Source: Antedon mediterranea (lineage: Eukaryota > Echinodermata > Crinoidea > Comatulida > Antedonidae). Taken from it: a DNA stretch of 64,000 nucleotides. The stretch covers positions 87,001 to 151,000 of the forward strand of contig NC_092670.1 of NCBI RefSeq assembly GCF_964355755.1, written 5' to 3'. Positions 13,601 to 33,353 of the stretch are shown here, piece by piece. Within the stretch, counting starts at the first letter, position 1; each line of letters starts with the position of its first letter. Both the position numbers and the translations under genes were made by a program. The notes under the pieces are model-generated. The model saw only the letters and a list, made by a program, of their open reading frames with translations. It did no database searches and had not been told where the DNA came from.

Positions 13601-16600
13601 GCATTTACACTCCCTGACATGTTTATGTCTAGAGCATAATTATGTTTGCCTACAGATTTACTATACAGTATGTGAAATCAAAGTATAATTTGGTGGGGTG
13701 TTTTTTTGTTGTTTTTTTTCCAGATTTTTAGGAGATTTTTTGGAGCTGAAATTTGGTGGATTTTTTCCAAATGATGGTATGTTGCACATATTTTGCACTA
13801 ATTTGTGATACATTTTAGTATAAAGGGATAGGCAGTTTTTGAAATATCACATATTTTAGATTCTAATTTTTACAAATACTGTATAAAAAATGTAAGCACC
13901 ATTGAGTGTTTTAATATGATGTTTATTTTGACAGTGTAGTTACATTAGTATTTAAGTAACAAACTCATAAATGCTGTATATCTAAATGATCTATAGTATT
14001 TAATTCACAAACTGATCAATATAAATATCTTATTTTGTAGTTCCAATACTTTCCCAAGAAAGTTGTGCCACTCTTGAAATATCTCTAATTAAAATTTGTC
14101 ACAAGCGTAGAAAGGTGAGTTGTTTCATAAAACCAAAAAGACAGGTAACTAAGTATCCTATTACTATACAAAGCTTTAAACTTTATTGTCTAACATCATA
14201 CATACTTTAAATTTAATATATTATTTATATTATTAAATAATAATAGTAATTTGATAATCAGTGAATGAGTTTTTTCTGTTTCTGCAGGATACTTCACCGT
14301 ATGAACCCATACAAGTAGGAAGATGCCGTGTACCAATTGACCCAGCTGACCTTTCCACTGAGTTGCATTCCACAATATCCATAAACAGCCAGCTTTTGGA
14401 CTCCACCAATGGCCACACTCCTAACTCATATGTGCTACATTTTAAAGTCCATTTCCAAATTTTGACGACAGAAAAACTATGCAATTATGTTTCTGAAGAG
14501 TGTTCTCTGGGTAATTACATTAGTTTAGTATAACAACAATTATTAACTGTACTGTATAATTGTTGTTGAAACTAAGCTATATAAGATATCAAATATTTAT
14601 TGTTCCATCATAAAATATGTTGGAAATTAATTTTACAAATGGCATACAAATACAAAAATACATATAAACAATACAAATGTAAATATAAAAAGAAAACATG
14701 TACTTACACTAAATAGGTGAACTGGATACGTTCATTAATGCTAAACCACCATTGACAACTTTCAGTTTTACTTTTGTAGATGAAACACCAAACAAACGTA
14801 GACGTCCCTCACGTTCACAAGACACAATGGAAAACATAACATATACCTCAGAGCTAGCCGTTCTTGATAAGTATGGTCGATGTCAACTAACTCCAGCAAA
14901 GTATGAACTTGTCTTCCAAGAAACCAAAGTTAAAGGAACCAAAAATGCATCATGGGAAACAATTATGGAAGGCAAAGTATGAAATAATTTATTATAATTT
15001 CATGTTTGTTTATGAACATTTGTAGTGGGTATGTGTAAGCTTGATAGAGGATTTGTAAACACAAAGGTTCTGAAATATAGTTTTAGTATGACTTTCCAGG
15101 ACTTTCTATGCGGTGATTTATTCTAGATATAATGGTCATTTGGCTCAACGTATTGGAAATATCTAATCTGTGCAAACTCCACAGCCATTTACAAAGTTCT
15201 GAAAAACATTCTTATTAAGACTAGCAAGTTGTGGATGAGAGCAAAATATTCTTGGAAAAAATTAGTTTAAATACAAATTTAATGTTATGATCTAGTTTTT
15301 ACAAATACTTTCTGTTTCATCATCATCATCTTCCGTTACGCTATTCGTCTTGGGTAGACATTACGTACGCTAATCGTTTCCATGACTCTCTTTCGGTGGT
15401 CTGATGGTCTGTCATTAATTTTGCGATCGATGTATTTGCTTTTTTGAGTTCTTTATTTATGTTTCCTATCTGTTTATTCACTAAAATATTTGATTCTAAT
15501 AATGTCTTTATACACAGAATGTTCAACCTTTTGAGCTGATCAACAAAGGCCCTGTTCTTAAATTCCATACTGTTTGGCACCGGGAACAAAATGGAGTTTT
15601 AAACGGCTCTACAAACATACCAAATGGTTTAAACCATTATTCATCAGTTGAAGATGATGAAGAAGATATAACAGGTAATGCCAGAAAACAAATTAACAAA
15701 GCATACTATCCTACATACTACTGCATTAGATCTATGCTTATCACCACTATTTTGCCAGTCAAAATTCCCTATAGTTGAAGTATCCAGAATTTCTGTAGTT
15801 TTAAACTTAGGCATTTTTATTCAATAAATATTCAAATATGTGTATATTAATATGACTATTATTACTATTTAAAGCAATAAAAAATAAGGAGGCAGTAGTA
15901 GAGAAACTTGGTAAAGATCTCAAAATGGTTTCTGAGAAAAGAAAACATCGAGTATTTTACCAATTCCTGTATAACAATAATACAAAACAACAAACAGAAG
16001 CTAGAGAGAATATGCATTGTCCATGGTGTTCACTCAATTGTATGCAGCTGTATGGCCTGCTTAAACATCTTACTCTCTGTCACAGTAGATTTAACTTTAC
16101 GTATATTGTAAGTATACACTATTGTTTGTTTTTTAATCAATTAATGAAAATTAATACATTATTGAAATAAATTGAATAATTATTTATATATGGTAAATCG
16201 ATCATTTGTAATTTTGTATTTTTTTTATAGCCTTGTGAATCAAACACAAACATAAATGTAACATTAAATGAGCATTTTGTACTTTTCTTATAGCCATGTG
16301 AATCAAACACACGCATAAATGTAACATTAAATGAGCATTTTGTACTTTTCTTATAGCCATGTGAATCAAACACACGCATAGATGTAACATTAAATGAGCA
16401 TTTTGTATTTTTCTTATAGCCATGTGAATCAAACACACGCATAGATGTAACATTAAATGAGCATTTTGTACTTTTCTTATAGCCATGTGAATCAAACACA
16501 CGCATAGATGTAACATTAAATGAGCATTTTGTACTTTTCTTATAGCCATGTGAATCAAACACGCGCATAAATGTAACATTAAATGAGCATTTTGTACTTT

Positions 16601-31600: not shown

Positions 31601-33353
31601 CATATTATTCAATAACACACTAAACATTCAGTCGTAATGGACCATGCCGTAGAACACCGGTCACTCAAATACTAGGTATGAAGTAAATATGCCATATTAT
31701 TCAATAACACACTAAACATTCAGTCGTAATGGACCATGCCGTAGAACACCGGTCACTCAAATACTAGGTATGAAGTAAATATTCCATATTATTCAATGAC
31801 ACACTAAACATTCAGTCGTAATGGACCATGCCGTAGAACACCGGTCACTCAAATACTAGGTATGAAGTAAATATGCCATATTATTAATAACACACTAAAC
31901 ATTCAGTCGTAATGGACCATGCCGTAGAACACCGGTCACTCAAATACTAGGTATGAAGTAAATATGCCATATTATTCAATAACACACTGACATAAATAAT
32001 AATTTGTAATTCTAAAAGGTAAACAGGTGTTTAGTTTCATACAAATCAAGAATGTCAACTACCATCTGGCTTTTGTTATTTTTGATTTGTTCTTCCTTTA
32101 GACGCCAAAGAAAAGCGCCAACTCTCAATGAATTCCTAGAAGGTGAGGACCGTGACCTTGTCAGTCATCGTCCTTTTGTCTCGGGTCATAATAGGTAAGG
32201 AAATGGGGTTTTTTTCCTATTTTTTTTAACATAGATAATAATATGTATTTAGGTGTATTTTCGAAAATGCATGAATGTTAAAAAAAAAAAGGAAAATGAA
32301 ATTGATTATTTCATTTCAGGCTTTCTGCAGGGCTTTTTTTCAATTCTTGTATATACCATATTTACTAATTTTATGTACAGTACACTGATTCAGTTAAGCA
32401 TTAATCTTTGGCATATTTTTAGTAATTTACAAATCTTTAAATGACACAAACACTTTCTGTTTTAGAGTGTATCATCACACACATACCTTACAACCTCTCA
32501 CACCGCAAGAAATGGATATTGATAGTGAGGATGAAATTGACCCATCATGGCTCAAAGAACGTACAAGCATGGTAAGTCCTCCTCTATTATAACCTAGGCT
32601 ACTGCAATTTGGGCTCAAAGTTTGAAATAATGTAACAAATCTAAGTAAAATATTAATGTTTTGTGTGTGTCTATGTGAGTATTGATTGAATTTTATCAAA
32701 TACTTACTACCGCCTTTAAATCTGCCTTGAAAACTCATCACGTTCACGATTTACCTGACGATAGAACAGGATCGGCCAAACTACCCCTAAACCAGTGGCG
32801 TCATACAAGAAAGCTCTCTACTAATTGTATTACTTTCAACAGAATAATTTATATTCATTTGTTTTTGTGCACTTAGATGATTGATGAATTTACTGATGTT
32901 AATGAAGGTGAAAAAGAATTGATGAAATTATGGAATGTGCATGTTCTTAAAAATAAGTAAGTAATCTCTGTATTTGGTAACCAATAACCAGAAATTACTT
33001 TTTTGGGGGTTTTTGGTCAATTTAATAAAAATGTTTGAATGTTTCCATGGTTTTAATAATTTTAAATACTTGTTTTCATCAGCTTTATGTCGGACAGTCT
33101 GATACCAAGAGCATGTAGAATGTTTGTACAGGATCATGGACCAGAACTCGTTAAGCTAAACTTAAAGAGTAACTTTTTACTCCATATGGTGAATTTATTT
33201 GACTTCAGCCTTATCCAACCACCACTTATATCCAGTATTATGGCTGATCTGGATAAATTTGAAGAATCTGCTGCCAAAGAACCATCTATTCCCGCAGAAC
33301 ATATGACCTATGACACACCTGGGTGTAGCCAGCTAAAAATAGTTAATGATTGA
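7682..33353 (+). CDS. SUZ12: Polycomb protein SUZ12 (complete, 15 exons)
   Basis: Core subunit of PRC2 in the nucleus; it scaffolds EZH2 and EED for H3K27 methylation. Exons: 7682-7781, 8376-8422, 9173-9237, 9339-9407, 13724-13776, 14041-14114, 14288-14510, 14717-14976, 15518-15674, 15875-16107, 19956-20113, 32102-32194, 32466-32571, 32877-32956, 33083-33353. They join in phase to 1989 nt (662 aa plus stop; human is 739 aa, with a longer low-complexity N-terminus). Recognisable parts are [10 protein letters not shown] (exon 1), [15 protein letters not shown] (exon 2), the C2-like region (exons 5-9), and the C2H2 finger with C398, C401, H414 and H419 (exon 10). DGSYAGNP and FSRNGP fall in exon 11, and the VEFS box in exons 13-15 ([18 protein letters not shown]). 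Introns 2, 4, 10 and 11 hold tandem arrays; those in introns 10 and 11 copy the edges of exon 11. Family identity is very secure; exon edges are hand-predicted. Confidence 0.93.
8590..9066. repeat. Composite tandem repeat in SUZ12 intron 2
   Basis: About five units of two lengths (about 105 bp, then about 73 bp after loss of one part) share CCTTATGAATTGGGTGG and CTTATGGTTAGTA. No exon sequence is seen in the unit. The array ends about 105 bp before exon 3. Confidence 0.92.
9406..13494. repeat. 135-bp satellite array starting at the exon 4 donor of SUZ12
   Basis: About 30 units of 135 bp fill nearly all of intron 4. The first unit begins with the donor itself (last two exon bases plus GTAAGTGCATTCTG). 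Later units carry AAGTAAGTGCATTCTG or AAGTAAGAACATTCTG, and also a TAAGTAAGTAAGTC block, so most hold two or three GTAAGT-like hexamers in the sense orientation. A few units have insertions (ACCGG near 10527, AATA near 10680 and 11090). Confidence 0.97.
16231..19955 (+). repeat. 63-bp array of duplicated exon 11 acceptors (SUZ12 intron 10)
   Basis: 59 tandem units: 57 of 63 bp and two of 67 bp (with ACGT inserted, near 16737 and 18882). Each unit begins CCATGTGAATCAAACACACG, like the first bases of exon 11, continues through TTAAATGAGCATTTTG, and ends with the acceptor tract TACTTTTCTTATAG. The genuine exon 11 is the next unit, diverging after CATTTTG. Variants are A/T in GCATAGATG versus GCATTGATG, and C/T in GTACTTTT versus GTATTTTT. 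Confidence 0.97.
20056..31989 (+). repeat. 90-92-bp array of duplicated exon 11 donors (SUZ12 intron 11)
   Basis: About 130 units. Each holds the last 58 or so bases of exon 11 (from CATTCAGTCGTAATGGACC), its donor (ATGAA|GTAAAT), and about 34 bp of intron (TGCCATATTATT, then CAATAAC, CAATGAC or AATAAC, then ACACTAAA). The first copy is the exon end itself. Most units read CTAGGTATGAAG where the exon reads CTAGTTATGAAG. Marker variants recur at 3025-bp and 1559-bp distances, showing higher-order duplication. A 200-N gap interrupts the array. Confidence 0.97.
27001..27200. other. Assembly gap (200 N)
   Basis: Exactly 200 undetermined bases inside the 90-92-bp array. The true array length is therefore unknown; 200 may be a placeholder. 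Confidence 0.99.

Follow-up and report, generated by a model that had tools for sequence, protein, structure and literature searches.

The stretch of DNA analysed here, called the window below, comprises 64,000 nucleotides of the genome of the crinoid Antedon mediterranea (contig NC_092670.1, hereafter C1; C1:87001-151000), and its central subject is the SUZ12 gene, exon 11 of which lies between two large tandem arrays built from its own two edges. Positions are those of the window unless a contig is named (Table 1), and the searches with protein domains and with repeat units covered the whole assembly (354 Mb, 18 contigs). Eleven of the contigs, C1 to C11, add up to 353.5 of 354.4 Mb and probably correspond to 11 chromosomes; a search for COX1 gave no match. 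The product of the gene aligns over residues 13-623 with SUZ12 chains of the Protein Data Bank (PDB; E 7e-168) and carries the Pfam domains VEFS-Box and Zn_SUZ12 (PF09733, PF23320). The genome search with VEFS-Box returned four matches, three strong ones at the SUZ12 locus and a weak one on contig C8; among the 13 matches listed for Zn_SUZ12, the only strong one was also at this locus, and a match on C11 attained the cut-off solely together with neighbouring matches.

Exon 11 is entered in phase 0 and left in phase 2, at the donor TGAA/GTAAAT (the slash marks the splice point). Intron 10 consists to 97.3% of array sequence and intron 11 to 99.1%, and the two arrays are separated by a unique exon middle of about 51 bases (20005-20055). 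A preliminary description of this locus had presented the 158-bp exon of SUZ12 as the last unit of one array and the first unit of the other, with about 59 copies upstream and about 130 downstream, taken from different parts of the exon and placing some 60 acceptors and 130 donors around it. Unit-by-unit parsing, together with the exon model, bore out this anatomy: the upstream array holds 60 units, the last being genuine, the downstream array holds 128, the two use the first 43 bases of the exon (49 when a shared ATTTTG is counted) and its last 58 bases, and every AG and GT is intact.

Table 1. Features of the window, with positions counted from its first nucleotide (ORF, open reading frame; TRF, Tandem Repeats Finder).
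Feature	Position	Strand	Description
SUZ12 gene, complete 641-aa ORF	7682-33353	+	15 coding exons; hand-built exon model; AG/GT at 14/14 introns, consistent phases
SUZ12 exon 11	19956-20113	+	158 bp; sole copy with both edges and unique middle
Upstream (acceptor) array, 60 units	16211-20004	+	TRF (63 bp) and unit-by-unit parsing; 58 x 63 bp, 2 x 67 bp
Downstream (donor) array, 128 units, mostly 91/92 bp	20056-31988	+	TRF (92 bp) and unit-by-unit parsing
200-N run inside downstream array	27001-27200	.	C1:114001-114200; begins at a round contig coordinate
Second SUZ12 edge array, ~30 units of 135 bp	9406-13492	+	Headed by exon 4 donor (AA/GTAAGTGC); 51 GTAAGT motifs
UCP4-like exon 4 acceptor array, 96 copies of 61 bp including the genuine one	54994-61806	-	Interrupted for ~0.9 kb (59876-60812)
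Donor array, 96 bp x 4.3	39287-39707	-	At exon with CBM_14 domain (chitin-binding gene)
UQCRC2 array, 38 bp x 4.9	2280-2466	+	Begins within last exon; repeats last codons and stop codon

In the upstream array, each unit consists of the polypyrimidine tract, the AG and the exon bases that follow it, the consensus reading ATTTTGTACTTTTCTTATAG and then the first 43 bases of exon 11. Unit 60 is the genuine exon edge, which leaves 59 extra copies, and AG is preserved in 60 of 60. Where exon 11 reads GAGCATTTTGATGGG, the array reads GAGCATTTTGTACTT at the same place, and ATTTTG is therefore a 6-bp direct repeat bounding the founding segment on both ends; this flanking microhomology is indeed visible in the sequence. 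Pairwise divergence averages 3.4% across the 58 units of 63 bp. Departure from the consensus is greatest in the distal unit, with 6 differences, and the exon-proximal unit has 0.

The downstream unit combines the last 58 bases of exon 11, the GT donor and the start of intron 11, unit 1 being the genuine edge, and the donor ATGAA/GTAAAT is preserved in 128 of 128 units. Just 5' of this donor, a T>G change found in 97 of them produces a second donor-like site, AG/GTATGA; the T is kept in 31 units, including the genuine exon 11, which lacks that site. In the genuine exon this T lies in a valine codon, and the aligned SUZ12 chain of the PDB likewise has valine; the 97 units carry a V>G change at a residue which the genuine exon retains as V. 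AG/GTATGA was considered as the genuine donor of exon 11 and rejected, since the exon reads AGTTATGAA and the phase into exon 12 needs ATGAA/GTAAAT. It should also be noted that unit types recur in a higher-order order and that the block 20256-23455 recurs 3025 bp downstream at 99.8% identity (3194/3200 bases). The half-units flanking the N run fuse into an exact 92-bp unit type which is found three times elsewhere in the array, twice between identical neighbours, and the run thus behaves like a scaffolder's gap, with none or only whole units missing. The TRF figure of 130 units counts across this run, as opposed to 128 by parsing.

Genome-wide searches with each unit gave 60 upstream and 128 downstream matches, all within C1:103211-118988. 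Neither unit was found at any other locus by these DNA searches, in which a missing match is no proof of absence; they also served as the check for exon-less copies of these arrays at other places, which gave none, and a dispersed satellite or mobile element was rejected. At gathering thresholds, no Rfam match was present in the window. Codon differences between array copies and the genuine copy were non-synonymous in 29 of 58 cases, and 23 of the 29 synonymous ones were a single recurring change; the array copies look unconstrained.

From each of the 59 extra acceptors, an in-frame stop is met before the end of exon 11; a typical 63-bp unit does not shift the frame, and TTA TAG stands at the next acceptor. 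Beyond the genuine donor, reading on into the intron gives TAA at once. Of the choices tested, therefore, solely the innermost acceptor and donor pair gives SUZ12, and this pair yields the complete conserved ORF. Exon definition and splice-site proximity are general principles of splicing. The spliceosome would, to judge by the reading frames only, pick this innermost pair.

Exon 11 is not the only place in the window where an array spans an exon edge. The array at the exon 4 donor makes up 94.6% of SUZ12 intron 4; AAGTAAG, a donor motif, stands at both of its ends and is likely to represent its founding microhomology. On the other strand lies a gene with 9 exons and a complete frame (Pfam Mito_carr three times, E 1.7e-70), which we take to be UCP4-like. 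The acceptors of its exon 4 array are 45 AG, 50 CC and 1 TC, intermixed; judged by eye, the 51 losses of AG among the 96 copies follow no trend from one end of the array to the other. The 50 CC copies share one identical two-base change from AG. At the chitin-binding gene, GT stands in three of the four donor copies found, and GC in the other. The three visible UQCRC2 exons align with complex III core protein 2 of the PDB at its C-terminus, through the last residue, and the stop-codon array that follows is a gene-end counterpart to the exon-edge arrays. Repeats are also found inside coding sequence, with in-frame 72-bp units within open frames at 40358-41229 and 42095-43970 (-), CBM_14 being clear in the latter and weak, below the cut-off, in the former. 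Reverse-transcriptase-like open frames, by eye of the non-LTR (long terminal repeat) retroelement type, lie at 5261-6649 and 35392-36674 (+).

Tandem arrays occupy 50.6% of the window, against 2.7% of 20 mitochondrial-carrier gene regions (87.2 kb, hand-chosen as multi-exon places and holding 84 of the 149 listed matches), the thresholds of the two figures differing slightly. Among the seven distinct arrays in these regions, a single one, of 2.5 copies, coincided with a matched exon edge, and the longest, with 37 copies, lay between exon matches. The array at the edge, a small donor mirage (a tandem repeat across an exon-intron boundary, see below), measures 45 bp x 2.5 and belongs to an exon of a carrier gene that lies well outside the window (L045:761-864; C1:40856761-40856864). 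Around tektin exons of four genes, 20 overlapping loci showed short low-copy repeats only. Two tektins fit the 8snb chains (sea urchin) far better, at 596 and 576 bits, than they fit the next best chains, at 369 and 390 bits respectively, which points to an echinoderm. A region on contig C5 (L033, C5:8000001-8008000) consists to 55% of tandem arrays, whose families, with units of about 45, 47 and 128 bp, are interleaved. A six-frame Pfam search around a 28-copy array (L026:1201-5702) gave nothing above the family cut-off, with one weak match to DUF5463.

Tandem repeats across exon-intron boundaries have been termed 'mirages' in amphioxus, where the accessible parts of the papers describe them in Adh3, globin (BflGb6, BflGb9), troponin C and PGBD5 (PMC3087553, PMC3902484). 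At exon 11, the unit likewise holds both exon and intron, the genuine junction is the terminal unit continuous with the exon, and AG and GT are kept. Taking together the sequence, the counts, the reading frames and the searches that found no other locus, we infer that exon 11 probably bears two mirage minisatellites, one per splice junction, which expanded by unequal exchange or slippage and are tolerated as splicing takes the innermost sites. A segment of 63 bp over the 3' splice site, between ATTTTG repeats, and one of 92 bp over the 5' splice site would have been tandemly duplicated, and growth to 60 and 128 copies may have proceeded via unequal exchange or slippage, units being homogenised and blocks duplicated on the way, until the arrays came to fill both introns and the genuine exon was the innermost copy on either side. 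Exon definition would pair the nearest 3' and 5' splice sites, the remaining copies would stay intron, and other splice choices would lead to products with a premature stop. Expansion by unequal exchange is suggested by the block repeated at a spacing of 3025 bp, by the higher-order order of units and by the divergence of the distal upstream unit, which are its signatures. The upstream array, with its six distal differences, fits reduced homogenisation at cluster edges; the downstream array displays block repeats and no such edge effect. It is most likely that the arrays are minisatellites which the gene tolerates, and not a device.

Several observations weigh against this interpretation. The distal end of the downstream array shows no extra divergence, and the exact length of that array is uncertain, owing to the N run and to the near-perfect 3-kb repeat. 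Four unit stretches folded no better than shuffled sequences (z +0.7 to +2.0), so that hairpins lend the expansion no help and hairpin-driven expansion was rejected. The predicted pairing with U1 is stronger for the decoy AG/GTATGA (-5.7 kcal/mol) than for the genuine donor (-3.3 kcal/mol), both energies being for pairing with the U1 5' end, and proximity or exonic context must therefore decide the choice. Finally, the weak second VEFS-Box match (C8:19180770-19181075, -, E 0.0098) is barely above the family cut-off and contains one internal stop; it covers 93 profile positions in one unbroken stretch and is possibly a decayed processed copy of SUZ12.

That the arrays act as functional splice-site decoys, so that introns 10 and 11 are removed slowly or not at all and the SUZ12 level is tuned via intron retention or nonsense-mediated decay, would agree with the integrity of every splice site in both exon 11 arrays, with the stops that end the tested off-target choices, and with the acquisition by 97 of 128 downstream units of a donor with better U1 pairing. 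At the measured divergences, however, the expected number of splice-site losses is no more than about 2 to 3, and zero is unremarkable (~0.08 by hand arithmetic, copies taken as independent); moreover, the UCP4-like array has lost its AG in more than half of its copies, trendless by eye, and unrelated genes carry similar arrays, which makes the decoy function quite unlikely. We regard as equally improbable a wider form of this idea, a 'poison' decoy field formed at exon 11 by 59 acceptors and 127 donors. On this view, junction motifs would act as founding direct repeats from which very large arrays grow in this lineage, and the length of the field would set splicing efficiency, as a heritable and mutable dial on SUZ12 output. 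The intact sites could also mean that the copies serve as real alternative exon starts or ends making SUZ12 variants; this is extremely unlikely, given that all 59 upstream choices stop in frame before the exon end and that translation continuing beyond the first donor immediately runs into TAA. An assembly artefact, with inflated copy numbers or mis-joined arrays, would account for an N run starting at a round coordinate (C1:114001) and for a block of about 3 kb repeated at 99.8%. It is nevertheless very unlikely, in view of the scattered variants that distinguish units and follow a consistent higher-order order, of the half-units beside the N run, which form an exact known unit in the same order as at two earlier places, of the upstream array, which is free of N, and of the similar arrays held by other genes.

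The position of the arrays raises a different alternative, namely that exon edges are favoured birthplaces of large arrays in this lineage, via a process linked to transcription or splicing or via splice-consensus motifs acting as founding microhomology. In line with this, the four longest of 11 non-coding-repeat arrays in the window all span junctions (chance ~0.015, by hand arithmetic and post hoc; TRF rows for the same array count once, and the list omits two coding arrays as well as small repeats that are simple or have two copies), and both ends of the exon 4 array bear the AAGTAAG donor motif. By contrast, when every array was collapsed to one unit and the units were set randomly in the gene, the probability of spanning a SUZ12 junction was 0.30, 0.42 and 0.56 for the 63-, 92- and 135-bp units, respectively. 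At least three of the four SUZ12 arrays fell on junctions with P=0.22, both edges of one exon were touched with P=0.18 (including single units covering a small exon), and at least one of two arrays in the UCP4-like gene fell on a junction with P=0.44. In the chosen carrier regions, the single edge array among seven, and the 37-copy array lying between exon matches, also argue against favoured birthplaces, which we consider unlikely. Placement alone requires no special process; array size might call for one. An enrichment at chromosome ends, the window lying 87 kb from the start of C1, was unsupported by 8-kb samples, in which array fractions were 0-0.233 at 60-98 kb from contig starts (4/8 zero) and 0-0.546 internally (6/8 zero); a ninth end sample, C1:1-4000 (2500 N), contained no array.

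The value of the SUZ12 exon 11 locus is that of a test bed for splice-site choice. It offers a natural experiment in which genuine and wrong sites differ almost solely by position, one exon facing dozens of near-identical acceptors and donors, with 97 of the 128 downstream units bearing a donor predicted to pair better with U1 than the genuine one does. The UCP4-like array provides an internal control, live and dead acceptors being mixed along one array. The locus further extends mirages to an echinoderm, in a gene with one strong genomic copy by domain searches and at copy numbers far above the amphioxus figures in the accessible parts of the sources.

The first mirage paper is reportedly that of Canestro in 2002, on amphioxus Adh. 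Ordinary intronic minisatellites and satellites share similar unit size, homogenisation and block duplication with the arrays described here; they differ from these arrays, whose unit extends over coding sequence as well as a splice junction and was recovered from a single locus. The preliminary description had known of no described element with this organisation. Its account of the anatomy, gene, exon number and copy numbers stands, the claim of no precedent falls to the amphioxus mirages already described in the available portions of two papers (PMC3087553, PMC3902484), and the bracketing of the exon is less special than was implied, because at least three further arrays in the window span junctions and the simulation makes such positions common wherever arrays arise within a compact gene. 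As in our case, the amphioxus unit spans the exon-intron boundary on the 5' or 3' edge and many splice signals are kept; concerted evolution is described inside the cluster, and less of it at the cluster edges (PMC3087553, PMC3902484, in part). Length and somatic instability were also reported, and the Adh3 data and the authors' own reverse transcription PCR (RT-PCR) suggest normal splicing, according to the accessible text of the globin paper (PMC3087553). In human segmental duplications, the available part of one study describes variable internal tandem repeats that reach exon-intron boundaries and activate cryptic splice sites; with a mean of four 30-bp units, these alter exon/intron structure (PMC2812944), whereas here a normal exon is left between two arrays. 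Among the open-access papers listed in literature searches, judged by title or abstract, we recognised none that reports arrays of this type from echinoderms or from SUZ12. The amphioxus globin and PGBD5 mirages comprise 2 to 7 copies of 10-160 bp in the portions of the sources at hand, as against 60, 128, 96 and about 30 copies here; the host is an echinoderm instead of a cephalochordate, and both edges of a single exon are expanded, for which those portions describe no amphioxus counterpart. Exon-intron boundary repeats are thus known as a kind; the copy number, the expansion at both edges of one exon and the echinoderm host are new, and SUZ12 exon 11 is an extreme example of this rarely described kind of repeat.

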